From contig JACPKR010000006.1 of assembly GCA_016186945.1 (NCBI GenBank), positions 1 to 54,643 of the forward strand: 54,643 nt of DNA. The letters are read 5' to 3'. Position numbers and translations under genes: made by a program. Positions 6,464-21,019 of this stretch are shown in pieces (within the stretch, counting starts at the first letter, position 1; every line of letters begins with the position of its first letter). The notes beneath the pieces were generated by a model that worked only from the letters and a program-made list of their open reading frames with translations, made no database searches and was not told where the DNA came from. Source of the DNA: Deltaproteobacteria bacterium (GTDB lineage Bacteria > Bdellovibrionota_B > Oligoflexia > Oligoflexales > Bog-1112).

Positions 6464-7522
6464 TCATCGTGCGGGGTATACAGGAAAGCAGTTGTGAAAC
6501 TGTTCGTCACCCTCGAACATCAGACGCAGGTCGTCGATACCAAACGCCAACATGGCCATGCGGTCCAGACCCATGCCAAAAGCAAAACCTGTGTACGCTT
6601 CGCTATCGTAATTGACATTCTCAAACACGTTAGGGTGAACCATCCCGCAGCCCATGATTTCAAGCCAACCCGTCTGGCTGCAAACACGACAACCTTTCCC
6701 ACGACATAGGGTGCAGAGCATGTCGACTTCCGCGCCAGGCTCGACGAAGGGGAAAAAACTTGGGCGAAAGCGCGTTTTCACATCATGCCCAAACAAGGCT
6801 TTCACGATGGCATCAATCATCCCTTTCAGATGGGCGAACGACACCCCCCTGTCCACCAAAACCCCCTCTAACTGATGAAACATGGGTGAATGCGTAAGGT
6901 CATTGTCGCAGCGATAGACGCGCCCAGGAGCAATAAATCGAATAGGCGGTGGATTTTGAAGCATCGCGTGGATTTGAATGTTCGAAGTGTGTGTGCGTAA
7001 AACAAGCTTCTGGCGATCGGCCACAAAGAACGTGTCCTGCATGTCCCGAGAGGGATGATCGTCGGGAAAATTCAACGCCCCGAAATTATAGAAATCAAAT
7101 TCCAGCTCAGGGCCTTCCCAGACACTGAAACCATAGCGCCGGAATTCTTTCAGAAACTGAGTACGTATCAGCGTGACCGGATGAAGGGACCCCCCCATGA
7201 AATTCCGACTGACGGGAAGCGACGTGTCAAGCTTCCTGTCGGTGAGCTTGGCGTCAATGGCATGCTGAAGGCTGATAGACTTTAAGCGCTCCAGACTCGT
7301 CTCCACGCTCGTTCGTAAGTCATTGATTTTTTTTCCAACTTTCGGGCGTTCTTCGCCGCCCAGCTCCTTAAGCTGCTCATAGAGGGTGGATACTTTGCCC
7401 TTACGCCCCAGCCAGCGGACGCGAAGCTGCTCGACCACTTCCGCTTCAGGATTTTTCTGGACCTGGGCGACTTCCGTCTGAAAATCGCCCTCCCACTGCT
7501 TCAAAGTTTCCAAAAGGCTCAC
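6464..7522 (-). CDS. pheS: Phenylalanyl-tRNA synthetase alpha subunit
   Basis: Catalytic subunit of PheRS, 352 residues from the chosen start. An N-terminal coiled coil contains VRWLGRKGKVSTLYEQLK, followed by the class II core: GPELEFDFYNFGALNFPDDH, SRDMQDTFFV, the motif 2 region MFHQLEGVLVD, and motif 3 GMGLDRMAMLAFGIDDLR near the end. The start is taken as GTG at 7522 (MSLLETLKQWEGD) because a GGGGGAAAG stretch lies upstream. A TTG at 7540 would add six residues but would begin inside that stretch. First gene of a pheS-pheT operon, divergent from the flagellin gene. Confidence 0.97.
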   Translation of the reverse strand: MSLLETLKQWEGDFQTEVAQVQKNPEAEVVEQLRVRWLGRKGKVSTLYEQLKELGGEERPKVGKKINDLRTSVETSLERLKSISLQHAIDAKLTDRKLDTSLPVSRNFMGGSLHPVTLIRTQFLKEFRRYGFSVWEGPELEFDFYNFGALNFPDDHPSRDMQDTFFVADRQKLVLRTHTSNIQIHAMLQNPPPIRFIAPGRVYRCDNDLTHSPMFHQLEGVLVDRGVSFAHLKGMIDAIVKALFGHDVKTRFRPSFFPFVEPGAEVDMLCTLCRGKGCRVCSQTGWLEIMGCGMVHPNVFENVNYDSEAYTGFAFGMGLDRMAMLAFGIDDLRLMFEGDEQFHNCFPVYPAR

Positions 7523-7540
7523 GATGCTTCTTTCCCCCAA

Positions 7541-7832
7541 AAATCAATTAATTCATGGAATCCCTGAGATATAGACAAGCGGCGAGGGTCCGTCAAGGTT
7601 GCTTTGGGATGCGTAAGCCCCAAGTGGCAAACCGAACAGCTTCAATAAAATTTTTAGATAAAAATTATATTGTTTTAATAACATTGATTGTTTTTATTAA
7701 AATTTAATAAAATTAAACATAATAAAGTAAATCTTCTATTAAACAGTCCGAATCATTTTATGGTTTTTAAACGCTTTTAATATCAGCGCGTTTCACAGGG
7801 AGTGAGACGCCCCCAACGACAGGAGGTCTATC
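7541..7832. promoter_or_regulatory. Divergent pheS/flagellin intergenic region, very AT-rich
   Basis: The stretch 7645-7765 is almost entirely A and T and resembles an UP-element or bent-DNA region. TAAAG at 7723 and GTCCGAAT at 7746 resemble the two halves of a flagellar sigma-28 promoter, but the spacing is about four bases too long, so I do not call it. A strong ACAGGAGG ribosome binding site precedes the flagellin ATG. The string GCGTAAGCCCCAAGTGGC near 7612 recalls scrambled element A ends. Confidence 0.4.
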
Positions 7833-8753
7833 ATGGGTCTGCGCATTAAAACCAACACAGCGTCTGTCAATGCACAACGTCACCTGGAAAAATCGACTTC
7901 AGCAGTTCAGGAATCCATGACGAAGTTAGCGTCTGGTTCCCGAATCAACAAATCCGCAGATGATGCCGCGGGATTAGCGGTCAGTGAGAATTTAAGAGCG
8001 GATTTGCGTTCGCTTGCCGTAGCAAAAAGAAACGCGAACGACGGCATTTCCCTCATTCAGGTTGCGGAGGGTGGGTTGGAAGAGACAAATAACATGCTCA
8101 TCCGTTTAAGAGAGCTTGCTATTCAGTCAGCTTCCGACACCATTAGCGACAAGGAGCGAGCGTACCTCGATCAGGAATTTGTGCAGTTAAAGGATGAGAT
8201 CAACAGGATTGCCGGATCGACGGAATTTAACGGCACAAGACTTCTGGTCGGGGAATCCGATCTTCCCGAAGACATGAAGGGTCTTGCGAATCCGTTTCCC
8301 CTCGAAATTCAAGTTAATAAGGACTACTTCGTGGATTCCGACGGTTTAGACAAAACCAACCCTGTAAACGTCATCCGCATTGACCTTTCCAATCTCAATG
8401 CGTTCACGTTCGGGGAGAATTCACTGGACCTAGGAAACCATGAGGAAGGTTCGCGGGTCATGGACAAGGTTAGCGCGCAACACAGCATTTCTGCCATCGA
8501 CAGTGCCATCACGAGAGTCAGCGAACATCGCGCCTATCTTGGCGCTGTGCAGAATCGTATGGGATCTACGATTAACAACCTCGGGCTGCAAATTCAAAGT
8601 TTGACAGAGTCGAGAAGTCGAATTTCCGATACGGATTATGCTGTTGAGACCGCTAACTTTACCAAGGAAAATATCCTACAGCAGGCGGGCACCTCCATTT
8701 TGGCGAGTGCGAATTCGCTTCCTAAAGTGGCGCTGTCCTTGTTGCAGGGATAG
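7833..8753 (+). CDS. fliC: Flagellin
   Basis: 306 residues with the conserved D0/D1 helices at both ends. The N-terminal part is MGLRIKTNTASVNAQRHLEK, then the signature SGSRINKSADDAAGLAVSENLRAD (about 34-57) and NDGISLIQVAEGGLEE. The C-terminal part is NRMGSTINNLGLQIQSLTESRSRI, SDTDYAVETANFTKENIL, ending ALSLLQG. The central D2/D3 region is short (about 140-200), so this is a compact flagellin that builds the filament after export by the flagellar type III system. It is preceded by AGGAGG at good spacing. Only one copy lies in the window and no other flagellar genes are nearby, so it is probably one of several scattered copies. Confidence 0.97.
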   Translation: MGLRIKTNTASVNAQRHLEKSTSAVQESMTKLASGSRINKSADDAAGLAVSENLRADLRSLAVAKRNANDGISLIQVAEGGLEETNNMLIRLRELAIQSASDTISDKERAYLDQEFVQLKDEINRIAGSTEFNGTRLLVGESDLPEDMKGLANPFPLEIQVNKDYFVDSDGLDKTNPVNVIRIDLSNLNAFTFGENSLDLGNHEEGSRVMDKVSAQHSISAIDSAITRVSEHRAYLGAVQNRMGSTINNLGLQIQSLTESRSRISDTDYAVETANFTKENILQQAGTSILASANSLPKVALSLLQG

Positions 8754-8763
8754 TCTTGTGAAC

Positions 8764-8789
8764 AACTACGGCTCTAACGGGCCGTAGTT
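8764..8789 (+). terminator. Hairpin after flagellin gene
   Basis: AACTACGGC and GCCGTAGTT form a perfect 9-bp stem around an 8-base loop, starting 11 bases after the flagellin stop. The T-tract is short (the stem runs into GTTTCAG), so termination may be incomplete. It separates the flagellin gene from the peptide operon that follows. Confidence 0.7.
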
Positions 8790-8818
8790 TCAGTTACAAA
8801 GCCACATGGGCCTTTCGC

Positions 8819-8848
8819 TTGAGCTTGCTACAGCGATTTTTGTATTTA
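8819..8848 (+). promoter_or_regulatory. Possible sigma-70 promoter for the peptide operon
   Basis: TTGAGC at 8819-8824 and TATTTA at 8843-8848 are separated by 18 bases in an AT-rich stretch (GTATTTAAATATATTTCG). This is the best candidate between the flagellin hairpin and the precursor ATG at 8969. The match is only moderate and the leader would be about 115 bases. Confidence 0.3.
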
Positions 8849-8968
8849 AATATATTTCGTATTTTTTCTTGTCTGTCTTTCCCCCAAATGCTAGCTTTCC
8901 GCGCACTGCTAACATCTTAGCGGTCAGCCTACGGCTGTGTTACTAACTCTTTATGAAAGGAAAAAGTC

Positions 8969-9046
8969 ATGCCGTACATTGCCCCCGAACTGGTTATCAT
9001 TCCTAGCGTTAGCAATGTTGATTCAAACTGCTGCACAGCTTGCTAG
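8969..9046 (+). CDS. Candidate RiPP precursor peptide, 25 aa, C-terminal CCTAC
   Basis: A 25-codon ORF that reads MPYIAPELVIIP, then SVSNVDSN, then CCTAC and a TAG stop. AAAGGA at 8956-8961 is an excellent ribosome binding site seven bases before the ATG. The peptide is a plausible short leader (ELVIIP is a likely strand for docking to an RRE domain) followed by a Cys-rich C-terminal core with Cys21, Cys22 and Cys25. It sits directly upstream of a radical SAM enzyme carrying a PqqD-like RRE and of a second radical SAM/SPASM enzyme, the normal place for a RiPP precursor. A different-frame ORF across this region (8937-9125) has no such start signal. I know no RiPP family with this exact sequence, so the chemistry is unknown; Cys thioether formation would be the natural first guess. 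Confidence 0.75.
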   Translation: MPYIAPELVIIPSVSNVDSNCCTAC

Positions 9047-9051
9047 AGTGC

Positions 9052-9123
9052 TAATGCAGTTTCTGAAGCCTTCTGCTTTAAAAAAAAAGGCCTACTCCGC
9101 AATTTCTGCATTATTTTTGTTCT
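9052..9123 (+). terminator. Attenuator-like hairpin between precursor and enzyme genes
   Basis: TAATGCAG (9052-9059) pairs perfectly with CTGCATTA (9106-9113), with an inner GCCTT/AAGGC stem (9068-9072 with 9087-9091). TTTTTGTTCT follows at once. This is an intrinsic terminator just after the precursor stop. Partial read-through would make far more precursor than enzyme, a common arrangement in RiPP operons. Confidence 0.6.
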
Positions 9124-9145
9124 AAAAACGTTTGTTCTAAAAACG
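9116..9145 (+). repeat. Tandem 15-bp direct repeat upstream of radical SAM gene
   Basis: TTTGTTCTAAAAACG occurs twice head to tail (9116-9130 and 9131-9145), ending 18 bases before the first radical SAM start codon. The first copy forms the T-tract of the preceding hairpin, so the duplication could alter terminator strength or be a regulator site. Confidence 0.65.
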
Positions 9146-9163
9146 CTAATGTAAGTAAAAGAT

Positions 9164-10381
9164 ATGAAACACTTTATCGCTTACAAATTTAACAGATGGG
9201 TTTACGTGCGCCCCATAGGTGATACCCTCGCCTTTTACGATAGTCGTGACAAACATTTTCGCTATGTTAATTCCATGGGCAGGATGATCTTCGAGGAAAC
9301 TCGATCTAATGATTCATTGGCCTCGCTTTGTGAACGTTTGCATCGGAGGTTTTCCAACGTAGACGTAGCAATGTTGCAACGCGACGTCAGAACGTTCGTT
9401 GATCGCTTTACCGGTGTTGTGCAAAATATTGGACGAAGTTTCATTCATTCTTTTGAAGAAGCTGAAGACGTGGATTCATTTAAGCATGCCACTGAGCACT
9501 ATATCCAGCAAGGAAAACCGTTAGAGGTTGGAATTGAACTTACAGGCCTGTGTAATTGTGCTTGCGTTCATTGTTACCTTCCACGCGCAAAATTTCAGTG
9601 GACGCCCGAACAATTTGCAAAGGTTGCCGCTGACCTTCAACAAGAGAACGCTTTATTCATCTCCTTAACAGGCGGCGAGATTTTCCTTAACCGCGGTATC
9701 TGGGAAATACTTAATATCTCGACTAAACACTTTCCAACAGCCCTATTGACCAATGGAACTCTCTTTAATGATGAGAAAATTCATCGTTTGGCTAAATACC
9801 CTCTCGAGTGTGTAAATATCAGTATATATGGCCATTCCAGTAACGTTCATGATGCTGTAACCAAAGTAAAGGGTTCATACGAGCGTACGATGAACACCGT
9901 GCGTAAATTGAAATCGCTGGGAGTGAACGTTTGGGGACGTTACGTACTGATGAAAAACAATATTCATGATTTTGAGTCATTCTGTGTGGGTTGGCAAAGA
10001 GAAGGTTTGCCATACAATGTCACTTATCAGTTACAAAATGACTATAATAACAAAATTGATGTCCAATGCCTTCGAGTCAGTCCAACGCAAATCGCCCACT
10101 TCATTAGGACTGGACTATTAAAACCACCACGTGAAAAATATTGCTTTGCCGGTATCACTAAGTGTCGAATCAACCACCAAGGCGATTTTTACGCTTGTGA
10201 ATTGCTGCCTATATCAAATGGTAACGTCCACTTGGATGGTTTTAGCAGGGTATGGCAGAAGAGTAATAAACGGCCACGCCCAACCTCGTCCGGATGTCCA
10301 GGATTTGGATACCTCGAACATGGTAATTTCAAGGAAAATTACACTTACACAAGCAAGATTCTCGAGGCGGTCAATGCGTAA
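9164..10381 (+). CDS. Radical SAM peptide-modifying enzyme with N-terminal PqqD-like RRE
   Basis: 405 residues. Residues about 10-90 look like a PqqD/RRE domain (WVYVRPIGDTLAFYDSRD, NSMGRMIFEE, then a helical LCERLHRRF and DVRTFVDRF), the fold that binds RiPP leaders. The radical SAM core follows with the 4Fe-4S motif C130-x3-C134-x2-C137, the SAM-binding LTGGEIF and SIYGHSSNVHDAVTKVKGSY. The C-terminal part has scattered Cys (KYCF, TKCR, YACEL, SGCPGF) resembling a reduced SPASM/twitch domain. Predicted to modify the 25-aa peptide encoded upstream. Its stop overlaps the next gene by eight bases. The ribosome binding site is weak. The reaction type cannot be read from sequence. Confidence 0.9.
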   Translation: MKHFIAYKFNRWVYVRPIGDTLAFYDSRDKHFRYVNSMGRMIFEETRSNDSLASLCERLHRRFSNVDVAMLQRDVRTFVDRFTGVVQNIGRSFIHSFEEAEDVDSFKHATEHYIQQGKPLEVGIELTGLCNCACVHCYLPRAKFQWTPEQFAKVAADLQQENALFISLTGGEIFLNRGIWEILNISTKHFPTALLTNGTLFNDEKIHRLAKYPLECVNISIYGHSSNVHDAVTKVKGSYERTMNTVRKLKSLGVNVWGRYVLMKNNIHDFESFCVGWQREGLPYNVTYQLQNDYNNKIDVQCLRVSPTQIAHFIRTGLLKPPREKYCFAGITKCRINHQGDFYACELLPISNGNVHLDGFSRVWQKSNKRPRPTSSGCPGFGYLEHGNFKENYTYTSKILEAVNA

Positions 10382-10952
10382 CCGCTTTCTATTTGAAACC
10401 AAGCGCCTTTGTATTCGGCATATAGAGGTTGCCGATCTTGATGCTTTTCCGCAGATTTATGCCCATAACCTTCAGACAGCTAGCCTGCTTGATACCGCGA
10501 AGTTACCAATGAGTATAGAACAGAAACGATCCTCCATCGAGCATGACATTTTAAATGGGGCTGGCAATGGCTTTATCTTCGTAGCTTTTTTCAAAGAAAA
10601 AAACAGCTATATCGGCTGTGCTGGTTTGCAAAGGATCTCTTGGTCTAATTCTTGCGGGTATATGGGAGCAAATATTGAGCCTAAAATGCAGGGCCAAAGG
10701 TTGGGGAGCGAGTTTTGTTTCGGGGTTCTTTTTTATGCATTTCGTGAGCTTAACCTCAATCGCGTCGAGAGCCGTATATTGGTATCGAATCGTGCCAGCA
10801 TTAGTCTGTTTGCTAATTTAGGAGCTGTCCACGAAGGGACGCTGCGACAAGCTCAATATGTTAATGGTACCTATTGTGATGTTCATTTTATGGCAGTACT
10901 GAAATCCGAATTCGAGAAAAAATATGAATCTTGCGCAAAAGTCTACTTCTAA
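10374..10952 (+). CDS. GNAT acetyltransferase, RimJ/RimL type
   Basis: 192 residues. RimJ/RimL-like layout: FETKRLCIRHIEVADLDAFPQIY at the N-terminus, GNGFIFVAFFKEKNSYIGCAGLQ strands, an acetyl-CoA loop in the region EPKMQGQRLGSEFC, then LNLNRVESRILVSNRASISLFANLGAVHEGTLRQ. The start is the ATG overlapping the end of the first radical SAM gene by eight bases; a longer frame upstream only reads through that gene. It overlaps the next gene by 29 bases. In this setting it could acetylate the modified peptide, either as maturation or to protect the producer. It could also be unrelated to the core chemistry. Confidence 0.88.
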   Translation: MRNRFLFETKRLCIRHIEVADLDAFPQIYAHNLQTASLLDTAKLPMSIEQKRSSIEHDILNGAGNGFIFVAFFKEKNSYIGCAGLQRISWSNSCGYMGANIEPKMQGQRLGSEFCFGVLFYAFRELNLNRVESRILVSNRASISLFANLGAVHEGTLRQAQYVNGTYCDVHFMAVLKSEFEKKYESCAKVYF

Positions 10953-12084
10953 GTCTTGGTTTGCTGAGAGAATCTACGGTGGTTATCGCTTCCGTGTCTA
11001 CGCCGATGGTTCGTTAGGCGGACGACTTGAATGCATAGGTACTGATGGCGAAATCTATGATAGTCAAAATTCTTTTGATCTTTTGCAAAAAATTACGTTA
11101 AGAAGCGAGTCCTTGTGGAAAGGAGCAATAGAGCCTACGGCGCGCTGTAACGTGAAGTGCATTCACTGCTATGTCGGTGATGAACGTTTCCAGAAAGTCG
11201 ATGAATTGAAAGTACCGGAAGTCGAAGCTGTTATGGATCAGCTTTTGGCGCGCAATTGCTTATATCTTACCCTCACTGGTGGCGAATTCTTTGTACGTCC
11301 TGATGCCTTGCTTCTCGCTAAAATGGCGGTAAACAAAGGTTTCGCTACCATGATCCAGAGTAATGGTTCACTGATTCGTGAACATACAGCGGTCGCTCTC
11401 GCTGAATTGCCTATCTGCGCAATGGAGGTCAGTGTTTATGGTTTAACTCCTGAGGTCCACGACGCAGTCACAAATATCAAAGGCTCCTATAAGCGTACGA
11501 TCAGTGGATTGAAAAACTTACGCAAGTACAATGTTCCTACAGGTATAAAGTTCGTTATTACTCAGCCGAGCGCCCATCAAGCTCGTGAGGCTAAAAAGTG
11601 GGGCGATGAAATCGGCCTGCCATATACGATTTCCCCCCAAATGGTTCCAGCACGCGATGGTAGTAATAGCAACGAGCAAACTGACGGTTTTTGCAATTAC
11701 GTGATCACAGCAATAGCCGACGTTGCAAATAAGGGGCAGGTCGATATTCAGAAAAATTTGTCCTATCGCCGCAATTGTAAACCAGGTATCAATCGTGTTT
11801 GCATATCATCAATCGGCAAGGTTAAACCGTGCGAATTTCTACCGATGGAATTGGCTGACCTTCGTGTTGAGACTATGAGCGACGCTTGGAACAAAAATGA
11901 ATGGAAAGAATTTCGCGAGGAAATTTACGCACCACGTGAGGGTTGTAGTGGCTGTTCAGCAAAAAGTTATTGTCACGTGTGTCCAGCAGCTGCGTATCTC
12001 ATGGGTGAAAGCTTCGTGGCTCAACCGAAACGCGGATGTACTACTAGTTATGAGTTCAAGGAACTTTGGGAGAAAAATCTGTGA
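10924..12084 (+). CDS. Radical SAM/SPASM peptide-modifying enzyme
   Basis: 386 residues. An N-terminal ~65-residue strand-rich region (YGGYRFRVYADGSLGGRLE) is not clearly PqqD-like. The radical SAM motif is C75-x3-C79-x2-C82 (RCNVKCIHC), followed by LTGGEFFVRPD and VSVYGLTPEVHDAVTNIKGSYKRT, very like the first enzyme. The C-terminus is a full SPASM domain binding auxiliary Fe-S clusters: RNCKPG, VCISSIGKVKPCEF, GCSGCSAKSYCHVCPAA and KRGC. SPASM enzymes install thioether, C-C or other crosslinks in peptides. It presumably acts with the PqqD-bearing enzyme, which could present the substrate. The two enzymes share local motifs and may derive from a common ancestor. Confidence 0.92.
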   Translation: MNLAQKSTSKSWFAERIYGGYRFRVYADGSLGGRLECIGTDGEIYDSQNSFDLLQKITLRSESLWKGAIEPTARCNVKCIHCYVGDERFQKVDELKVPEVEAVMDQLLARNCLYLTLTGGEFFVRPDALLLAKMAVNKGFATMIQSNGSLIREHTAVALAELPICAMEVSVYGLTPEVHDAVTNIKGSYKRTISGLKNLRKYNVPTGIKFVITQPSAHQAREAKKWGDEIGLPYTISPQMVPARDGSNSNEQTDGFCNYVITAIADVANKGQVDIQKNLSYRRNCKPGINRVCISSIGKVKPCEFLPMELADLRVETMSDAWNKNEWKEFREEIYAPREGCSGCSAKSYCHVCPAAAYLMGESFVAQPKRGCTTSYEFKELWEKNL

Positions 12085-12203
12085 AAAAGTTCATCCTTGC
12101 CGCCATTACCATGTTAGCTACAGCTGCGGCTGAAACGAGTTTGGCAGAATTCTATCTTTTTGCGATCTATGAATTGGTGCTTGCAAGAATTGGGGCTTCA
12201 TGA
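12081..12203 (+). CDS. Small 40-aa signal-peptide-like or membrane peptide in the RiPP operon
   Basis: Starts with GTG in a GTGA overlap with the radical SAM/SPASM stop and ends in an ATGA overlap with the next gene, so both junctions show four-base translational coupling. The peptide is MKKFILAAITMLATAAAETS, then LAEFYLFAIYELVLARIGAS. The first half has the form of a signal peptide (two Lys, hydrophobic core, Ala-rich end). The second half is hydrophobic with acidic residues. It contains no Cys. It could be a secreted helper, an immunity peptide, a small membrane partner of the transporter, or a second precursor. It is too short for most gene callers. Confidence 0.6.
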   Translation: MKKFILAAITMLATAAAETSLAEFYLFAIYELVLARIGAS

Positions 12204-12922
12204 AGAATAGTAGGCAGTTAATTCTTATTCTTTTGCTCCATGTCTCGCTTTGTTACACATATGCGTTTCTATCTTTCCTCGGACCACTTATTGTACTGGT
12301 TACTATTGCACTGATTATCCGTAGCCCGAGTAGATTGGGATTCTCCTGGACTAAGCTTGATGCTCTGAGTTTTGTCCTCACGGGAATCGTCACCGCCCTA
12401 TTGGCATTCTACCTGGGACGAACTCTCGATATTACCTTGTGGTATCATGTCTTCTCTGGAAGTTCGATCGCTTATATATTGGGACAAACCCTTTGTGAAG
12501 AAATTTGCCTGGGCTTTCTTCCGATGCAATATCTAGCTGCAAGAATCGTCGGTTTCTTCCCGCGCTTTGTGACAGTAATAGCTATGAGCCTGACGTTCGC
12601 CATCGGTCATCAACTCCTCTATACTCATCCTTGGCGTATCCAGGCGGATCCTCTTAACCTTTCAGCTATTATAGGGCTGTTTCTTTTTGGAGCGCTGCGC
12701 TTTTTTTCTTATCTTGTTACGAAGAAGATCGCGATTGCGTGGGGAATCCATTTGACCTGGAATTTGTTCTTTATTGCTCCGGATCTTTATCATCGCGGGG
12801 AGCTGCTTAAAGAGCCTCAACGATTCCGGTTGCTATTTGGCGAACCACTCGTTTTTGTGACTCTTATTGGTGCGTTGGGGATTGTGCTATTGGCTGGGGC
12901 AAGACGTCGGCTTCAAACATGA
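12200..12922 (+). CDS. CPBP-type intramembrane protein (possible leader protease)
   Basis: 240 residues with about six to eight hydrophobic segments. Two of the three CPBP/Abi motifs are intact: F133-x3-H137 (FAIGH) and H184-x3-N188 (HLTWN). The first, normally EExxxR, reads E100-E101-I-C-L-G, so the Glu pair is kept but the Arg is replaced by Gly. CPBP proteins are Rce1-like membrane proteases found in many bacteriocin clusters as leader peptidases or immunity proteins. Both neighbouring junctions are ATGA overlaps. Removal of the short leader, or self-protection, are the likely roles. The missing Arg leaves activity uncertain. Confidence 0.82.
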   Translation: MKNSRQLILILLLHVSLCYTYAFLSFLGPLIVLVTIALIIRSPSRLGFSWTKLDALSFVLTGIVTALLAFYLGRTLDITLWYHVFSGSSIAYILGQTLCEEICLGFLPMQYLAARIVGFFPRFVTVIAMSLTFAIGHQLLYTHPWRIQADPLNLSAIIGLFLFGALRFFSYLVTKKIAIAWGIHLTWNLFFIAPDLYHRGELLKEPQRFRLLFGEPLVFVTLIGALGIVLLAGARRRLQT

Positions 12923-14013
12923 AATCACTAATTGCATCGCAAACCTTATTTACACTCGCGATGCAGTTTTTGGATCTCTGCATCCTAGTAAACGTTTTCG
13001 ATCGCAGCCATTCCGTTGATTTCACTATTCTGGTTTTTATTTGTCAGATTGTCGCGCCGCTCTTTTCCCTTGTGGTAATCACACCATTAATGAGGCGACA
13101 CGGGTGTTCTGCATTGACTATGATTTCTCTTGCTTTAAGTATCGTTGCGTTAGTGACATTGGCAATTGCTCTACATAACGAAGAGGTTAGAACGGTGCCA
13201 ATTTTAGGTGTTGTATTTTTCTTAGCATTCAGCAACGCTATTTATCGTCCATTGATTCAAGGTGCGATCCCAATTCTGTCTTCTAACTGTATGCATGACA
13301 TTGTTCGAGTTAGCATCTGGAAAAATATCGCTACTGTCATTGCGAAACCACTGGTGCCTTTGTTTGGTTTGATCGTAATTCCTTTGGATTGGATTCTTAT
13401 TGGAGTGGCACTGATTATCATTATATCGATCGCTTTGTTCCGCCCTCCCATGGAAACAAGAGCGAAGATCGCTGATCCTGGCCTCAATCTGTCACTCTTT
13501 TCGCCGATAATGTTCAAAGTTATTCCAATAGCAACACTGCTAGCCTCTGTCGTTCGCATGGGACTTCACCAAGATGTGGGGAAAATTTCACTGCATCTTG
13601 GTATCACGTTTTCGAGTTTTACATTCGGTGTTTTATTGGGTCTTTGGAACAGGACGCTTCGGCGTCTCTCGCTACTGATTGGATTGATCGGTGTGTTGTT
13701 TGCTTTTAGTGGATTCCAGTCTCTGCCATTTTTTGTGACTTTGGTGGCGGGGGTGTTGTTTTCTGTCGTTGACATCTCGTTGAATTCGGAAATTGCCAGA
13801 ATTGTCGATTATGTCTCCAGAGTAAGAGCATTCACGGCACTCATGGTCGCAAGTGCGATTGTTCCGGCAGTTATATTGGCACTGACCAATGTCCTAGCGA
13901 AACGAATTGAGGGTGATTGGTTCGACTGGGGTTTATCGTTGTTGGCAATTGCAGTAACCGTTGTACAGATAAAAAGAATACTGCCGGAAGGGTTTTTCAT
14001 GGCTCGGGTTTGA
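12919..14013 (+). CDS. MFS-type transporter, likely peptide exporter
   Basis: 364 residues with about ten to twelve hydrophobic helices (for example TILVFICQIVAPLFSLVVI, WILIGVALIIIISIALF, LLIGLIGVLFAFSG, FDWGLSLLAIAVTVVQI). The general shape, and a cytoplasmic charged loop near FRPPMETRAKIADPG, fit a Major Facilitator Superfamily drug/efflux-type permease. No clear MFS signature A motif was seen, so the family is inferred from topology. It starts in an ATGA overlap with the CPBP gene and is the last gene of the RiPP operon, the natural place for an exporter of the mature product. Possibly shorter than a standard 12-helix MFS protein (about 390-400). Confidence 0.75.
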   Translation: MKSLIASQTLFTLAMQFLDLCILVNVFDRSHSVDFTILVFICQIVAPLFSLVVITPLMRRHGCSALTMISLALSIVALVTLAIALHNEEVRTVPILGVVFFLAFSNAIYRPLIQGAIPILSSNCMHDIVRVSIWKNIATVIAKPLVPLFGLIVIPLDWILIGVALIIIISIALFRPPMETRAKIADPGLNLSLFSPIMFKVIPIATLLASVVRMGLHQDVGKISLHLGITFSSFTFGVLLGLWNRTLRRLSLLIGLIGVLFAFSGFQSLPFFVTLVAGVLFSVVDISLNSEIARIVDYVSRVRAFTALMVASAIVPAVILALTNVLAKRIEGDWFDWGLSLLAIAVTVVQIKRILPEGFFMARV

Positions 14014-14081
14014 GAGAACAGCGACATGTTTTAAGACGACCGCGCGTCTATTACGAACTTGAAATACAAAGGCTGGATAAC

Positions 14082-15017
14082 TTGAAAGATGCAGTCCCCA
14101 CACAAGCGAGCGCTTGTGGCAAAGTTATACTGATTGGTGAACATGCCGTTTTATACGGCGCCGATGCCATTGCTCTGCCCCTCATTCAAAGGCGGGTAAA
14201 CCTCTCTCTTATTCCCTCGACGGAAAGGCAGGTCCGGATCGATGGAGTTGAGTTAGCTAGCAATGACCTTAACGTGATTGATGATGCCTTTCGCGCTTTA
14301 GACGTTGAACCTTTCCCCTTGCGAATCGAGGGATCGTCACAGGTGCTTTTGAAAGCAGGACTCGGCTCATCCGCTGCGTTTTGTATCGCCTTACTGAGAC
14401 TCATCTCTCAGTCGGTTGGAAAGAACGTGCCACCTCATCAATTAGCAGAAATGGGCAAGACGCTCGAACAGAGATTTCACGGGAAAGCCTCAGGGTTGGA
14501 CCCCACAGTTGTTGCCTACGAGAAGGTCGTTCATTTCAATATCCACACTGCCACTAGCCTTATTGATGTCAAAGGGTCAGGCAGCCAACCCCTCTGGCAT
14601 TTTTGCCTGATCGACAGCGGAGAACGCGCTTCGACAAAACGCATGGTGGAAAAAAGCGCTTGGTATTTCACTTCTGGCAACATAACAGGCAAGCTTAAAG
14701 ACTTCAATGCCCTCACCCGCCTTGCGAAACAAGGACTTGAGTCGGGGCAGTACAAAGCGGTGGCACAGGCGATGAACGAAGCGTCGCAATTGCTGACAGA
14801 CGTGGGGATCATGACTCGAAAACTTCAGGAAATCATCGAAACAGCACATTCTCTGAAGCTTCTTGGTGCGAAAGTGACGGGCGCAGGAGGCGGTGGCTGC
14901 GTGCTGGGACTTCTGGACCCCACTTGTGTGGAAAAACAGAAACAAGCCATGATCGGTACATATGGAATCGAAAGGGTGATAAACTTTACCCTTGGCCCAG
15001 CTGAATCCTACGCGTGA
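14082..15017 (+). CDS. mvk: Mevalonate kinase
   Basis: 311 residues from a TTG start at 14082, chosen because AAAGG lies nine bases upstream and the protein then begins like other mevalonate kinases (KDAVPTQASACGKVILIGEH). GHMP-kinase features are clear: GEHAVLYGADAIALPL near the N-terminus, the ATP loop KAGLGSSAAFCIALLRL, FHGKASGLDPTVVAYEK, and C-terminal KVTGAGGGGCVLGLL. It phosphorylates mevalonate in the isoprenoid pathway. A frame open further upstream runs through the end of the transporter gene and is not credible. First gene of an isoprenoid operon with fni and a prenyl synthase; the other mevalonate genes are not in the window. Confidence 0.93.
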   Translation: MKDAVPTQASACGKVILIGEHAVLYGADAIALPLIQRRVNLSLIPSTERQVRIDGVELASNDLNVIDDAFRALDVEPFPLRIEGSSQVLLKAGLGSSAAFCIALLRLISQSVGKNVPPHQLAEMGKTLEQRFHGKASGLDPTVVAYEKVVHFNIHTATSLIDVKGSGSQPLWHFCLIDSGERASTKRMVEKSAWYFTSGNITGKLKDFNALTRLAKQGLESGQYKAVAQAMNEASQLLTDVGIMTRKLQEIIETAHSLKLLGAKVTGAGGGGCVLGLLDPTCVEKQKQAMIGTYGIERVINFTLGPAESYA

Positions 15018-15031
15018 GTTTTGGAGGAACG

Positions 15032-16369
15032 ATGGCTGAAACGAGAAAAGAAACAGTCTGGATTCAACTTAGCCAAGCGCTTAAAGGGGAACTCAACAGC
15101 CAAAGCATCAACATCATCGCTCTCTCCGAAAGCAGTGTTCTTGTCGGGGATTCAGAACTCAGATTAACCGGAGCTTCCTCGGAGCTTCTGAAGCTACACC
15201 TTTTCGACGACAGTTCTCTGGAACTACGGGGGACACTCAGGCGTCACACCAGCGGTGGTTGGGAACTCGAAGTCTGGGAAAAAAAAGACAAGCTTTCCCT
15301 TCAAGAACTCCTCGGACAAATTCGCAAAAGCCAGCATGTGGACATTTGCAACGACTATGACATCGAAGCAAGTGATCGTTTCACAGGATTTTCTCGCGTT
15401 AAACTTATCCCCCAGGCGATTCCGGAACTCAACGAAAGCGACATCGACACAAGGTGTGAATTCCTGGGGCATCGCTTCGACCTGCCCCTTCTAGTCACAG
15501 GAATGACGGGAGGAATTACAAAGGGTGGAACGATCAACCGACACCTTGCTTCCGCTGCCAGCGCTTTCAATATTCCCATGGGGATCGGTTCCCAACGGAT
15601 CGCTCTTGAAAACAAAAAATACGAGGAACTCTTTCAACTGAAAGACCGGTTCCCCAAACTTTTCCTCATCGGTAACCTCGGTATGGCGCAAGTCCTCAAC
15701 AACGGCGTCGATTTGTGCAAACGTGCCGTCAGCATGGTGGACGCTAACGCGCTTGCCATTCACCTCAATGTGCTTCAGGAGATGATTCAAATTGAAGGAG
15801 ACCAACGCTTTTCTGGTTTCCTCAAACGTCTGGAACAAATCTGTCGCAAGCTTCCCGTACCGGTGATTGTAAAGGAAGTTGGCTCAGGGATCGGACCAAG
15901 AGATGCGCAGCGATTGAAGGACGCAGGTGTTCAAGCTATTGACGTGGGAGGAAAAGGAGGGACCTCATGGTCCTACATAGAGGGAATACGGAGCGGGCAG
16001 GAAGATTTACTTGCTATCGCAAGCACCTTCCGGGACTGGGGTATCCCTACTGCCTACGCACTCGGGGCTATTCGCAACGCAGGGATCGACCTGCCCCTCA
16101 TCGCAACGGGCGGTATTCGTGACGGGCTGACTGCGGCCAAAGCAGTCGCAGTGGGAGCGAACGCCGTAGGTATCGGCTTGCCCCTCATGAGAGCTGCCAT
16201 CCGAGGGGAAGAAGAAGTCCACCGTACACTCAGCGCGCTGAGAAAGGGCCTTAGAATTGCCATGCTGGCAACAGGCAGTGCTAAACTGGCAAAATTGCGC
16301 AATCGCGTGTCACTTCGAGATCCTTTCGAAGAAGACTTTGAAAAATGGTTGAAGAAAACAGGTAAATAA
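15032..16369 (+). CDS. fni: Type 2 isopentenyl-diphosphate isomerase with extra N-terminal domain
   Basis: 445 residues; typical Fni is about 350. The FMN-dependent isomerase domain begins near residue 90 (RKSQHVDIC, GFSRVKLIPQAIPELNESDID, PLLVTGMTGG) and continues through GIGSQRIALE, IHLNVLQEMIQIEGDQRF, KEVGSGI, VGGKGGTSW and ATGGIRDGLTAAKAVAVGANAVGIGLPLM. It interconverts IPP and DMAPP. The first ~85 residues (strand-rich, SSVLVGDSELRLTGASSELL) match no domain I recognise. The ATG at 15032 follows GGAGG at 15023; a GTG at 15014 overlapping the mvk stop is an alternative without a ribosome binding site. Confidence 0.95.
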   Translation: MAETRKETVWIQLSQALKGELNSQSINIIALSESSVLVGDSELRLTGASSELLKLHLFDDSSLELRGTLRRHTSGGWELEVWEKKDKLSLQELLGQIRKSQHVDICNDYDIEASDRFTGFSRVKLIPQAIPELNESDIDTRCEFLGHRFDLPLLVTGMTGGITKGGTINRHLASAASAFNIPMGIGSQRIALENKKYEELFQLKDRFPKLFLIGNLGMAQVLNNGVDLCKRAVSMVDANALAIHLNVLQEMIQIEGDQRFSGFLKRLEQICRKLPVPVIVKEVGSGIGPRDAQRLKDAGVQAIDVGGKGGTSWSYIEGIRSGQEDLLAIASTFRDWGIPTAYALGAIRNAGIDLPLIATGGIRDGLTAAKAVAVGANAVGIGLPLMRAAIRGEEEVHRTLSALRKGLRIAMLATGSAKLAKLRNRVSLRDPFEEDFEKWLKKTGK

Positions 16370-16397
16370 CGCAAAGCAGGGAAAACTTGAGGTCCCC

Positions 16398-17258
16398 ATG
16401 ACTGCGTCCTTTGTAGACATAAAAGAACAATTCGATCAACACTTCCACTCCTTCATAAAAAAACGTTACGGCACCAAAGACCCCTTGTCCCAAGCCTGCT
16501 CCTATGCACTCGAAGGCGAAGGTAAACGGGTACGTCCGCTTCTCGTCCTACTGTCCAATCAAGCCTGCGGAGGGAAAATCACTGAGGCTCTCGACGTCGC
16601 CGTCGCTGTGGAGATGGTGCATACCTACAGCCTGGTCCACGACGACCTACCCATCTGCGATAACGATGACTTGCGAAGAGGACGCCCCACAGTTCATATA
16701 AAATTTGACCCAGCGACAGCACTTCTTTGCGGAGATGCCTTGCTAAGCGATGCCTTTACACTGTTAACAAACAGCCCCTGTCCTCAGGCCCTGGCGATGG
16801 TGAGGGAATTGTCGCTAGCAATTGGCGGAAAGGGGATGGTGCTGGGCCAAATGATGGATCTCATGGCCACAGGACATGCACAAGAACTTACACAGCTGGA
16901 CATGATACACGCCCACAAGACAGGGAAACTTATCGGTTCCGCCTGTGCCCTCGGAGGACATGCGGCAAAGGCTTCGCAGGAAGTCATCAAACATCTGCGA
17001 CAATTCGGAGAGTCTATAGGCCTAGCCTTTCAAATCAAAGACGACCTGCTCGATGATGAAATAGGAACCGGGAAGTCTTTGGGAAAAGACCAGAAACAAG
17101 GAAAGCTGACCTACCGAGGGATCATGAGCAGACAAAAAGCAGAACACAAGGCCCGCGACTTAACCGCTCAGGCAGTGGATCTTCTGGCGTCTCTGGACAC
17201 AGGGAAAAAAAAACCTCTCCTGCATTTTGTCGAAACCTTACTGCAGAGGAAAAGGTGA
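16398..17258 (+). CDS. ispA: Polyprenyl (farnesyl/geranylgeranyl) diphosphate synthase
   Basis: 286 residues, the usual size of short-chain E-polyprenyl synthases. Substrate site features: GEGKRVRPLLVLLS (diphosphate-binding), the first Asp-rich motif in HDDLPICDNDDLRRGRPTVH, GDALLSDAF, GKMVLGQMMDL-like GGKGMVLGQMMDLMATG, KTGKLIGSA, and the second motif in FQIKDDLLDDEIGTGKSLGKDQKQGKLTY. It condenses IPP with DMAPP to C15 (or C20) chains for quinones and undecaprenol. It lies 28 bases after fni, completing a mvk-fni-prenyl synthase set. The product length is not certain from sequence. Confidence 0.94.
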   Translation: MTASFVDIKEQFDQHFHSFIKKRYGTKDPLSQACSYALEGEGKRVRPLLVLLSNQACGGKITEALDVAVAVEMVHTYSLVHDDLPICDNDDLRRGRPTVHIKFDPATALLCGDALLSDAFTLLTNSPCPQALAMVRELSLAIGGKGMVLGQMMDLMATGHAQELTQLDMIHAHKTGKLIGSACALGGHAAKASQEVIKHLRQFGESIGLAFQIKDDLLDDEIGTGKSLGKDQKQGKLTYRGIMSRQKAEHKARDLTAQAVDLLASLDTGKKKPLLHFVETLLQRKR

Positions 17259-18149
17259 TCATTTCGGAGCTTTTCGTTTCAACTCAATAAGAAATGGAGG
17301 GGAGGATGTCGACACCGCTGCTGCTGCGGCAGCTGAAAGCGCTTCCAAGTCCTCATGAGTTGTGGTTCGTCGAAGTCCCCCACCTCCTCGGTCATAAATA
17401 TGCGCAACCTCCTGGTCAGCCTCATCCTCATCTACCACGGTTTCCTCGTCATGACCTTCCAAGATGGCTTCGAACTGAGTAACAGGCTGTTTTGTCGGAG
17501 CCGGTCTAAACCACTCCAGAAACCTTGCATTGTCTTCTTCCTCAAGAATCTCCCGCAGCTGCAACCAAGTTAATTTGTCAACACCTACGCCAAACGGTCC
17601 TGTCAGGAGTTTGGCCTGCCACAACTTTGTGATCGGTATACTGGCCAAACGTATGCGAATGTCAAGGAGTAGCAAGAATTTGTCGATCTGGAAGCCTGCA
17701 AGATGTACACCAAAGATTTGAAAGAGATCGGAAGGTTCTCTATCGTATTTGTCTTCATAAATCCCGGTGAGACGATACATCTCCATCAGCTCCTCAAACG
17801 ACCAACTAGGATCACCCTCTTTGGGAGCAGGAATTGTTTGGCGATGTGTGTGAAGGTAGACCCTTAGCTTGCCCAAGTCTGCCTGTGAGGGCCTTGTTTT
17901 AGTTCGTTTTCTGTAGTCCAAAGCCTTCCCATAATAGGCTCCATTTGCTCCGAAAGTGCCATCTGCCGTTTCCCACCTGTGCCAAGGATCAAGGGGACTT
18001 TCGGTAGGGTTTCGATCGAAAAACACACGTCTAAAATCGTAGTGACTACCAAGATGTTTCAAAAACTCAGGATAATCATCAGCGGCCCAAAGAGGCTGGG
18101 CACCAAGGAATAATAGAGCAATATTTATGCGTAAGAAAAACGGAAGCAT
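17259..18149 (-). CDS. Secreted protein of unknown function
   Basis: 296 residues with a Sec signal peptide (LRINIALLFLGAQPLWA, cleavage after AA or WA). I do not recognise a family. The mature part has a Trp/Tyr-rich segment (SPLDPWHRWETADGTFGANG), a predicted helical middle (QIDKFLLLLDIRIRLASIPITKLWQAKLL), GVGVDKLTWLQLREILEEED, an acidic run (EETVVDEDEADQEV) and a Gly/Ala-rich tail (DRGGGGLRR, ALSAAAAAAVSTSSPP). It ends on the base after the prenyl synthase stop, convergent with it. Upstream lies the broken-transposase zone. Confidence 0.75.
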   Translation of the reverse strand: MLPFFLRINIALLFLGAQPLWAADDYPEFLKHLGSHYDFRRVFFDRNPTESPLDPWHRWETADGTFGANGAYYGKALDYRKRTKTRPSQADLGKLRVYLHTHRQTIPAPKEGDPSWSFEELMEMYRLTGIYEDKYDREPSDLFQIFGVHLAGFQIDKFLLLLDIRIRLASIPITKLWQAKLLTGPFGVGVDKLTWLQLREILEEEDNARFLEWFRPAPTKQPVTQFEAILEGHDEETVVDEDEADQEVAHIYDRGGGGLRRTTTHEDLEALSAAAAAAVSTSSPPFLIELKRKAPK

Positions 18150-18230
18150 TGTTGGTCTCTTTATTATGTTTATTTGCTTGGGTTAACTATAGGAAGAGAG
18201 GGTACTTGGCAATGGATTTCTCAATTTCTT

Positions 18231-18374
18231 CGTAATGCGTAGCCACTTGGGGCAAATAGGGAGAGGGGGGTTGGGGGGGCGAGTGATGCGTCGCCTCCCC
18301 CGGATTTCTTGGAGGAACCAGCTGCGCAGTTTCCTCCAAACCACCTCCTTGCCCCAAGTGGCTTACCCATTACG
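18231..18374. repeat. Dispersed element A, full copy
   Basis: About 145 bp with terminal inverted repeats CGTAATGCGTAGCCACTTGG and its complement ending CCCATTACG. Inside are GGGAGAGGGGGGTTGGGGGG, then GGAGGAACCAGCTGCGCAG followed by TTTCCTCC, an imperfect palindrome, and CCACCTCCTTGCCCC. Other copies or parts lie at 22186, 26719, 30857, 41930, 44350, 46316, 48947, 51184 and 52446. The whole unit can fold into a long hairpin with an inner hairpin. Confidence 0.92.
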
Positions 18375-18379
18375 GGGTA

Positions 18380-18428
18380 GCCCATGGTTAGTGCTGAAGA
18401 CAATTCCTGCACCTTCGTCCAGCTGTGG
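18380..18428 (-). pseudogene. 49-bp fragment of the FAD oxidoreductase gene
   Basis: Nearly identical to 21406-21454 inside the intact oxidoreductase gene (PQLDEGAGIVFSTNHG here versus PQLDEGAGIVFSANHG there). It abuts the 3' end of the transposase remnant in the same frame, giving a chimeric reading frame TDLTL-PQLDEG. It marks a recombination junction. Confidence 0.8.
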
Positions 18429-19012
18429 GAGAGTTAGATCTGTCGAAACAAAGATACACTTGCCTCGCGTCGGATGATTAACAAGGACGAAGCGTACAAG
18501 GTGGCCTACTGGATCCCAGACAAGGTCAATTGTGTAGTAGAGAAGATTGACTTCGATTTCACCGTAGACAGGGCTTGGATCCCTGATGAATTCTGCTGTT
18601 TTGAACAGATCAGAAAATCGAACTTATTCCCCATACTTTCTCGGTCTCCCGCGACGTCGCTTTTCAGGTTGAATAGCAGCACGATAAGCAACAGCCCCAC
18701 TGTTATGCCATCCCCTACAAGAACTAGCTTGCCATTTATACGCATTGTTGGGAAAAATCGTATGACGATCTGCAACCATATCTGCGCCAGGGTATCGAGT
18801 TTGATGGCGCCTGTGTGCATGTTGTCGAGAAGGCGTTGATAGAATCGCGGTGAGATCCCTAAAACTCGCACCAGACTCGTTACGCCTGCAGAGTCCGATC
18901 GGATTGAGATGCCAGCAACAATAGTGGCAAACCAAAGAAAGGAGCGCTTACGTGAAAATGCAGGACGGAGCTGACAGACAAAATTCCACCACTGAAGCCA
19001 AAGTGCCATCAC
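18429..19012 (-). pseudogene. Broken DDE transposase remnant
   Basis: The N-terminal part is intact (WLQWWNFVCQLRPAFSRKRS, IRSDSAGVTSLVRVLGISP, AIKLDTLAQIWLQIVIRFFP, NGKLVLVGDG, a DDE-type motif) and then the frame breaks. A second frame carries EKRRRGRPRKYGE and a third carries RFSDLFKTAEFIRDPSPVYG, VDLVWDP-like TIDLVWDPVGHLVRFVLVNH, PTRGKCIFVSTDLTL. These parts follow the order of a transposase family with a GRPRKYG linker, so an internal deletion and frameshifts have destroyed it. The 3' end is replaced by the oxidoreductase fragment. No intact inverted repeats were identified. Confidence 0.8.
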
Positions 19013-19101
19013 ATGTCCTTCAAGGAGATAAGTCTTTAACTGGAAACTTAGGACGTATGATATCCTCTCTCGCCTCTCTTTTCACGGTAAAGAGAGTTCC
19101 A

Positions 19102-19434
19102 ATGACAGATTGGCTCGATACCCCTGAAGGCAAGGCCTTTGAGGACCTTTCTGGCCGAGTTTATGACATCCTTGATGTTTTCAAATTAGACGCGGAAAAG
19201 CGGTTCTTTGTTGATGGCAAACAAAAATTGATGTCGCTTGATCAGGTGATACAAAAATTGGCTGACGACCTAGAACAAGAGACCTCCGTTATTAGAGAGT
19301 TTGTACTCATGTGGATGTATGAGGCTAGCAATGCACTAGACCCTGAGTTTGAGGGAACTCAAGAACATGTCGACATTGCGCAAAATTGGGCTGACGATGA
19401 ATGCCAAAAATACGGAATTGTTCTTCGTTTTTAA
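19102..19434 (+). CDS. Hypothetical protein
   Basis: 110 residues from ATG 19102 (AGAGAG five bases upstream): MTDWLDTPEGKAFEDLSGRV, YDILDVFKLDAEKRFFVDG, a helical LDQVIQKLADDLEQETSVIREF and a C-terminus with many acidic residues. A longer frame from 18952 would overlap the transposase remnant, so a start at 19057 or 19102 is more credible. No family recognised and no signal peptide. It lies in the mobile zone and may be cargo or a small accessory gene. Confidence 0.5.
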   Translation: MTDWLDTPEGKAFEDLSGRVYDILDVFKLDAEKRFFVDGKQKLMSLDQVIQKLADDLEQETSVIREFVLMWMYEASNALDPEFEGTQEHVDIAQNWADDECQKYGIVLRF

Positions 19435-19567
19435 CGATAGAACTCCGGACTCTCAAGTAATTTAAGGTAGTTACGAATTATCCTCGTTATCCCCTTAAGT
19501 AAAAAGACTTTTTGCCGATTCTACACCGCGATGAGACTTCACAAAATAAACACGAAAGGCTGAGGAG

Positions 19568-20040
19568 ATGCGCTGCCCCCCCCCGCACGAAGACTTCTTG
19601 AACTTTCTTTGTTCTTCTTAGTTTTAGTTTCAGTAATCCAATGCAAGACACTTCCATCTAAAGAAAATGTAGAACAACAAAAAAAGAATCTCGACGTAGA
19701 CAACGAACTTTCAATAAAAGAACGCGAAGGGATTCATCTGGTTAGTAACCCAATGGGTCATGATTTAATATTATCGATTTGTAAGGATTCGATATGCAGT
19801 GAAGATATCTCTTCCCAAGTTGAGTATCCCTTAATCTTATTTAGCGATGGAGATTATAGCGTCTCCATTAGTGAATGCTCCTTCAATGTTCAAGAAAACT
19901 ATTCATGTATAGAAAAATATCGTACCGTACTCCAAAATGTTAGCAAAATGTCAGTTGCCTCTACATTTCGTTTTTTTTTTGATACTGTAATTTCCAAAAA
20001 AATAGGCTTAAATCTTTATTCGCGGGGAAAAGACAAGTGA
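19568..20040 (+). CDS. Possible phase-variable lipoprotein, out of frame at a C9 tract
   Basis: AAAGG (19555-19559) precedes an ATG at 19568 by eight bases, and seven bases into the ORF there is a run of nine C (19576-19584). As sequenced, this frame stops after 17 codons (TAG at 19619). Adding one C, or losing two, would join the ATG to the long frame and give a lipoprotein N-terminus ending LELSLFFLVLVSVIQC. The rest (about 130 residues: ERE GIHLVSNPMG, SICKDSICSEDISS, DGDYSVSISECSF) is of unknown function with several Cys. The only alternative start is a TTG at 19609 without a ribosome binding site. Either a contingency gene in the OFF state, a pseudogene, or a sequencing error in the C run. 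Confidence 0.5.
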
Positions 20041-20054
20041 TTTTTCAGGGGTAG

Positions 20055-20191
20055 CTTACAGGCTCCGGAGTCGTTCAGGGTAGAGGCGTCGGGGTAGTCG
20101 TTCAGATTTTTCTTTCAAAATCAACTCACTCAAACATCGTCCCGCCTCGAAACCAAGCGAAAGGCCTGAGGACATATAGCCGGTGGCTAGA
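20055..20191 (-). pseudogene. Duplicated 3' end of the FAD oxidoreductase gene
   Basis: About 137 bp nearly identical to 21019-21155, which is the 3' end of the intact oxidoreductase gene on the same strand. The stop codon triplet is altered here. The two direct repeats enclose the hairpin repeat D and the toxin-antitoxin genes. Confidence 0.85.
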
Positions 20192-20203
20192 GAAGCCTCC
20201 GCG

Positions 20204-20274
20204 TTTGTCTTTTACTCGGCCCTAAAGGACCGAGTTTCTTTATCCTCGCGCTAAGGCGCTCGGAGTTTTTTGAT
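20204..20274 (+). repeat. Double-hairpin repeat D
   Basis: Two hairpins in a row: ACTCGGCCCTAAAGGACCGAGT and GAGCGCCTTAGCGC (here GCGCTAAGGCGCTC), followed by GGAGTTTTTTGAT. An inverted copy with almost the same sequence lies at 54314-54384. The T run after the second stem makes it able to act as an intrinsic terminator in this orientation. Confidence 0.75.
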
Positions 20275-20387
20275 AAAGAAACTTAACAGTCCTTAAAGGA
20301 AGAGAGGGTGCCAATGGATTTCTCGATTGTTGGGAAAACTTGACCGCGTTTCCGAATATGACTACAGTCATAACTATAGGAGAAAAC

Positions 20388-20627
20388 ATGCCTGCCATTC
20401 GAGTTTCAAAAGGAAGCTTAAAAGCACGGATGCTAGAGTATTTTAGGGAGGTTGAAAGAACAGGGACGGAGTTGATAGTCCTCGATCACAATAAGCCGGT
20501 CCTTCGAATCACTGCCATTGAAAGAGAGAAAAACACCGCAGGTGAGGTTTTCAGAAAAGATCGCGGAAAGATCAAATATCATGAAGACATCAATGCACCA
20601 ACAACTGACGAATGGGGGGATACCTGA
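20388..20627 (+). CDS. Antitoxin, Phd/YefM-like
   Basis: 79 residues starting MPAIRVSKGSLKARMLEYFR, with AGGAGA a few bases upstream. The N-terminal MPAIRVSKGSLKARMLEYFREVERTG resembles Phd/YefM (DNA-binding half), followed by the strand pair ELIVLDHNKPVLRITAIE and an acidic C-terminal tail (KYHEDINAPTTDEWGDT) that should wrap the toxin. The stop codon overlaps the toxin start as TGATG. It is expected to neutralise the PIN toxin and repress its own operon. Confidence 0.88.
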   Translation: MPAIRVSKGSLKARMLEYFREVERTGTELIVLDHNKPVLRITAIEREKNTAGEVFRKDRGKIKYHEDINAPTTDEWGDT

Positions 20628-21016: not shown

Positions 21017-21019
21017 ATC

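Follow-up and report, generated by a model that had tools for sequence, protein, structure and literature searches.

The window, by which we mean the whole 54,643-nucleotide stretch of DNA that was analysed, contains a 25-codon open reading frame (ORF) that sits between a flagellin gene (7833-8753) and a radical SAM gene (rSAM1, 9164-10381). The features of the locus are as follows.

8956-8961, plus strand: Shine-Dalgarno-like site AAAGGA, 7 nt 5' of the ATG of the short ORF, assigned from the sequence
8969-9046, plus strand: probable precursor ORF of 25 residues, MPYIAPELVIIPSVSNVDSNCCTAC, with its ATG at 8969, stop codon TAG at 9044-9046 and the leader motif YIAPEL at residues 3-8
9164-10381, plus strand: rSAM1, 405 residues, with an RRE at about residues 12-82, the radical SAM core CNCACVHC and a short carboxy-terminal domain
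10374-10952, plus strand: GNAT acetyltransferase, overlapping rSAM1 and rSAM2
10924-12084, plus strand: rSAM2, 386 residues, with a full SPASM domain and no RRE detected
12081-12203, plus strand: 40-residue ORF with a GTG start, a hydrophobic signal-like amino terminus and no Cys, overlapping both neighbours
12200-12922, plus strand: CPBP/Rce1-like membrane protease (Pfam PF02517, E 9e-7)
12919-14013, plus strand: hydrophobic multi-pass protein of 364 residues, MFS-like by eye

Each of the six genes from rSAM1 to the 364-residue protein overlaps its successor, as in a translationally coupled operon, and the 25-codon ORF has a ribosome site of its own and lies 117 nt 5' of rSAM1. The 40-residue ORF, the second short ORF of the operon, contains neither Cys nor the leader motif; it matches no NCBIfam or Pfam family, and PHROGs families only at E 0.19 and above. 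The CPBP protein, in which we recognize by eye what we take to be the EE, FxxxH and HxxxN motifs, is a candidate leader peptidase or immunity protein. The 364-residue protein has no match in Pfam, NCBIfam or PHROGs and is a candidate exporter.

The GC content of the region is 0.42-0.46 over 9-14 kb, as against 0.49-0.53 over 14-18 kb and 0.47-0.53 over 4-9 kb. For comparison there is one other genome of the genus, which is 75% complete. On its relevant contig, of 4,866 bases, the homolog of the window gene at 21020-22072 comes about 60 nt after the closest flagellin gene. About 12.3 kb (8754-21019), including the operon, is therefore absent from that site, a difference that fits either horizontal acquisition or rearrangement. 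A Phd/YefM-like antitoxin and PIN toxin pair (20340-21016) lies within the same stretch. Directly 3' of the operon, at 14082-17258, are GHMP mevalonate-kinase-like, FMN-dependent isomerase-like and polyprenyl synthetase genes, the pathway names being our interpretation; these isoprenoid genes have the higher GC content and are probably host genes. Two smaller features flank the short ORF. On its 5' side, only one of 200 shuffles folds as well as or better than the stretch 8754-8968 (z -2.4), which has a hairpin at the flagellin end and more stems near the ribosome site; on its 3' side, 9116-9145 is a perfect tandem repeat of two copies of the 15-mer TTTGTTCTAAAAACG.

The 25-codon ORF and its chance level

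A first-pass annotation had singled out this ORF for its AAAGGA site, its end with three Cys and its position between the flagellin and radical SAM genes, and both the sequence and the shuffles described here bear this out. When the 410-nt intergenic stretch (8754-9163) was shuffled 20,000 times with its dinucleotides preserved, 429 of the shuffles had an ATG ORF of 18-80 residues with a Shine-Dalgarno-like site. Such an ORF carried at least three Cys in its last six residues in two shuffles, a criterion that was picked post hoc, after the Cys tail had been noticed, and carried [YW]xxPx[LVIFA] near its start, a criterion taken from independent literature, in four. The combination of ribosome site, [YW]xxPx[LVIFA] and at least three terminal Cys appeared in none of the 20,000, and shuffling the whole window 300 times likewise gave no ORF with all features among 109,489 ORFs on the plus strand. 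Within the real window, the 25-codon ORF is the only one of 658 ATG ORFs of 18-80 residues, counted on both strands, to have at least three Cys in its last six residues.

The peptide belongs to no family that we could detect: it matches no NCBIfam family at E up to 1, and no Pfam or PHROGs family either. It had been described as far shorter than usual, which holds against most RiPPs but not against PqqA, whose average length is given as 23 residues in PMC3023750. The same annotation had divided it into a leader of about 20 residues and a core of five, a division that is not supported. The recognition motif and a predicted strand fill residues 3-12 and thus leave about 13 residues (SVSNVDSNCCTAC) as the potential core, so that residues 13-25, rather than the last five, are more likely to be the core.

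Among 58 genomes of the phylum, no rSAM1 ortholog was found at E 1e-25 outside its own genome, in which the second match is its own rSAM2; searches of 144 relatives at 1e-20 and of 383 relatives at 1e-30 gave three and two distant genomes, respectively, besides its own. An exact-peptide-word search of genome contigs and viral contigs returned no relative, and no ortholog of the whole operon was found in the relatives, genome contigs and viral contigs searched. Across its class, 4 of the 57 other genomes have weak matches (E 0.1-1) to the precursor sequence, and a short-ORF scan of these four loci (L008-L011) yielded no YxxP peptide. The precursor has no match in plasmids, and no description of the locus was found in the open-licence literature searched.

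Leader recognition and the radical SAM enzymes

The motif [Y/W]xxPx[L/V/I/F/A] has been published as the leader motif recognized by the RREs of lasso peptides (PMC13381572), and the YxxP leader motif is likewise reported in PMC12710340; YxxP recognition is described mainly for lasso peptides. YIAPEL, residues 3-8 of the 25-residue peptide, fits this motif.

The enzyme next to the peptide, rSAM1, has a PqqD-like RRE at its amino terminus, and the fold predicted for this domain is nearest to that of the leader-bound lasso B1 RREs. By sequence, a Pfam PqqD match at rSAM1 residues 30-81 scores 21.7 bits, just below the cut-off of 23.4. On a profile built from 79 PqqD-like proteins (77 ORFs of distant loci and two seeds, with rSAM1 left out), residues 12-82 score 17.6 bits, as compared to 8.6 for the best of 2,000 shuffles of the amino terminus. 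The fold itself was taken from an AlphaFold model in which the precursor, the intergenic codons and the RRE form a single chain, with 48 other alignment rows. In this model pLDDT is about 80-93 across most of the RRE, and the leader has a mean pLDDT of 80 over residues 1-10 and forms a strand at 8-11, although 27 of the 48 other alignment rows put one or two stray residues in the precursor columns (30 cells in all); the linker is at 32-49. A Foldseek search with the RRE model places lasso B1 proteins with a bound leader peptide at ranks 1-6 (best E 3.6e-3), and pairwise comparison with TbiB1 and another leader-bound lasso B1 gives Z 10.4-10.5 and rmsd 1.7-2.1 over 85-88 aligned residues, whereas PqqD gives Z 7.7. 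A YxxPxL leader next to an RRE of lasso-B1-like fold means that motif and RRE type agree independently, and the leader is predicted by the model to dock on the RRE of rSAM1.

The leader is thus ordered in the single chain of precursor and RRE, but in an earlier model of the precursor with the whole of rSAM1 the precursor is unplaced (pLDDT about 28) and the RRE is itself poor (block means 32-72). As regards gene content, rSAM1 joins an RRE to a radical SAM domain (Radical_SAM, E 9.8e-22) in one maturase, and a short precursor with an RRE-recognition leader adjoins it, both of which are expected of RRE-dependent radical SAM RiPPs. The leader motif, the identity of the RRE, the fold prediction and the analogous loci described below support the original proposal, in which the RRE-radical SAM enzyme next to the peptide uses it as a RiPP precursor. 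A degenerate pattern of ribosome site, ATG and YxxP, compared with a reversed control in 20 genomes, matched about as often as the control in many of them and is therefore useless alone.

Over 284 aligned positions, rSAM1 and rSAM2 share 29% identity. In alignments of rSAM1 with its relatives, C327, C334, C345 and C378 fall on the auxiliary-cluster-I cysteines, whereas rSAM1 has neither the CxxCx5C segment nor the last Cys. Using anSME numbering, we take these four residues to be the ligands of auxiliary cluster I. The cluster-I ligands as quoted in PMC6231123 match this assignment. The closest solved structure to rSAM1 by sequence is the sactisynthase SkfB (E 6.5e-14), and SuiB, SkfB and CteB stand, among others, near the top of the structural matches listed for the first rSAM1 model; these two results make thioether formation plausible. 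For each enzyme 25 curated families were listed, and the scores of both stay below the cut-offs of all of these. Against the sactipeptide equivalogs, rSAM1 scores 58.3 of 300 (SkfB), 75.7 of 850 (AlbA) and 45.6 of 625 (StsB) bits. It scores 49.8 of 381.35 bits for PqqE and 69.7 of 265 for mycofactocin MftC, and rSAM2 57 and 81.9 bits against the same two cut-offs.

Proposed pathway and competing explanations

The 25-codon ORF very probably encodes a RiPP precursor, and we think it likely that this peptide is the substrate of both radical SAM enzymes. In the pathway that we propose, the leader YIAPELVII would form a beta strand docked to the lasso-B1-like RRE of rSAM1, as the model predicts, and would thereby present the carboxy-terminal SVSNVDSNCCTAC to rSAM1 and then, if this order is correct, to rSAM2. 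The two enzymes would form crosslinks, of which Cys thioethers between C21, C22 or C25 and nearby residues are the most likely kind; the chances that such thioether chemistry takes place on the peptide seem to us about even. The leader may then be cut off by the CPBP protease or by a housekeeping protease, and capping of an amine may fall to GNAT and export of the product to the multi-pass protein (12919-14013). Taken as a whole, this reading of a small RiPP precursor with an RRE-docked leader, crosslinking by two radical SAM enzymes, processing and export is one that we favour on balance; on this reading the system would have been acquired horizontally.

The competing explanations assign a different role either to the peptide or to its Cys codons. 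In a cofactor-type RiPP the peptide would be a scaffold, from which one or two Cys-derived residues at the carboxy terminus are modified and excised to give a small redox-active or metal-binding molecule, as in the PqqA and mycofactocin systems. The length of the peptide is within the PqqA range (average 23 residues according to PMC3023750), its striking residues are at the extreme carboxy terminus, much as the invariant residues of the mycofactocin precursor are reported in its last eight positions, and the operon offers a small tailoring enzyme in GNAT. However, rSAM1 and rSAM2 are far below the PqqE and mycofactocin cut-offs, the operon contains no other PQQ or mycofactocin gene and the precursor matches no family, and we regard this explanation as improbable. 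More doubtful still is that the true substrate is another peptide, either the 40-residue ORF (12081-12203) or one encoded elsewhere, and that the 25-codon ORF is an untranslated accident. The 40-residue ORF overlaps both rSAM2 and the CPBP gene and is therefore probably translationally coupled to them, but it lacks both Cys and YxxP, its amino terminus resembles that of a signal or membrane peptide, and the combination of features in the 25-codon ORF is one that the shuffles never produced.

It is also conceivable, but very unlikely in our estimate, that the ORF is an attenuator, a regulatory leader peptide that senses cysteine or charged tRNA-Cys and controls transcription of the operon. Clustered Cys codons in a short ORF just 5' of an operon would suit this role, and the 117-nt gap contains an inverted repeat (AATGCAG/CTGCATT) with T-rich sequence after it; yet 8700-9200 contains no terminator-like site, the stability of 9040-9130 is ordinary (z 0.45), no Rfam family reaches its gathering score in 7500-9300, and the RRE-type leader motif would be left unexplained.

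Returning to the crosslinked RiPP, a narrower version of it can be put forward, although only tentatively: a minimal two-radical-SAM system in which a 25-residue precursor, recognized through a lasso-type RRE that belongs to a radical SAM enzyme carrying just one auxiliary cluster, gives a product of at most about 13 residues with its crosslinks or metal site all within the terminal CCTAC. To our knowledge, such chemistry has not been described on so small a substrate. If the chemistry is as proposed, the locus would offer a compact substrate on which to study how the work on one Cys-rich tail is shared between two radical SAM enzymes, and the YxxP recognition rule, so far mainly a lasso-peptide rule, would enter radical SAM systems. 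Gene callers readily overlook precursors of this size, as do RiPP miners that depend on a known maturase family; comparing a leader motif with the type of fold of the RRE next door can flag an orphan 25-codon precursor that has no homolog.

The CTAC end, the Rce1-like protease and the isoprenoid genes downstream also led us to consider a bolder variant, in which CTAC is lipidated in the manner of a CAAX box. We rejected this as the main reading and give it hardly any credence: the operon shows no prenyltransferase, the polyprenyl synthetase has nothing unusual about it and the isoprenoid genes have a higher GC content. In addition, the FNI and polyprenyl synthetase homologs are found about 2.0-2.1 kb apart in three genomes of the family (L138-L140), where the RiPP genes are absent from the stretches fetched.

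Known systems and related loci

Several known systems share part of this layout. The lasso peptide B1/leader pair has both the YxxPxL leader and the B1-type RRE fold found here, but here the RRE forms part of a radical SAM enzyme, and Pfam and NCBIfam reveal neither a lasso cyclase (asparagine-synthetase-like) nor a B2 protease among the operon proteins. Thuricin CD and ruminococcin C resemble it in having two radical SAM enzymes per RiPP cluster. The former has two precursors and the latter larger ones, as against one very short precursor here. In the SkfB and CteB sactipeptides an enzyme with RRE, radical SAM domain and auxiliary cluster acts on Cys, SkfB is the nearest solved sequence, and the single auxiliary cluster that rSAM1 appears to have is also reported for SkfB (PMC6231123); what differs here is the 25-residue precursor, the Cys cluster at its extreme carboxy terminus, the YxxP-type leader and the distance of rSAM1 from the SkfB and AlbA cut-offs.

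The SSH RaS-RiPP family, whose function is listed as not characterized in PMC13361665, is represented on the Macrococcoides plasmid p19Msa0383-1, where the gene order is PqqD, radical SAM, precursor (FxxP...Cys), radical SAM and ABC, and where the precursor scores 86.4 against the NCBIfam cut-off of 45 (NF050043). A short Cys-containing precursor with a [YF]xxP leader, a pair of radical SAM genes, a PqqD-type RRE and an exporter gene, here a candidate one, are common to both loci. In Macrococcoides, however, the RRE is a separate gene, the precursor has 40 residues and lies between the enzymes, the exporter is of the ABC type and the core contains SSH; the 25-residue peptide fails to match NF050043.

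A sister layout was reached by tblastn of plasmids. On seven conjugative plasmids from Escherichia, Salmonella and Photobacterium, an RRE-radical SAM fusion is preceded by a short ORF, MSYSKPTVLAKSSTYMAQCRPNSKPSGRPCNPPGPSGR, of 38 residues (YxxP...Cys; 4755-4871 in L013 and 4753-4869 in L012), which is identical in all seven records and annotated in none. The Photobacterium copy and one of the E. coli copies differ at 17 of 117 nt without a single amino acid change, while the enzymes are 77% identical, so the short ORF is clearly coding. As at our locus, the precursor lies directly 5' of the fusion, the YxxP leader begins at residue 3 and Cys follows the leader; the plasmid system differs in its 38-residue precursor with a Pro-rich tail and in its single radical SAM gene, which has a full SPASM domain and about 22% identity to rSAM1. 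The set of complete E. coli genomes gave no near match to the plasmid region.

A YxxP-type ORF with Cys adjoins the enzyme in 6 of 15 distinct radical SAM loci from other whole genomes, and a scan of 80 distant loci found a Cys-bearing ORF of this type near eight (one of which, L060, is the same locus as L006) and not near the other 72. The pairing of such an ORF with a radical SAM enzyme is thus recurrent but not universal. Acidobacterial precursors of the form [KR]PYxKPS/A...FE/YE...LACGK occur beside PqqD and radical SAM genes (L070 7155-7316, L077 7317-7478, L083 5393-5554, L086 7161-7322, L097 1144-1347 and L105 7184-7351), and the two of the six that were tested, L077 and L097, match no NCBIfam or Pfam family. 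Fused RRE-radical SAM enzymes are also found in Ruminococcus (L049) and in Oscillospiraceae (L107), and the short ORFs just 3' of them, at 7173-7310 and 7064-7228, end in AICCGRYVDADCGLLKSYKS and TSACGKVPGICGKLVQH, respectively.
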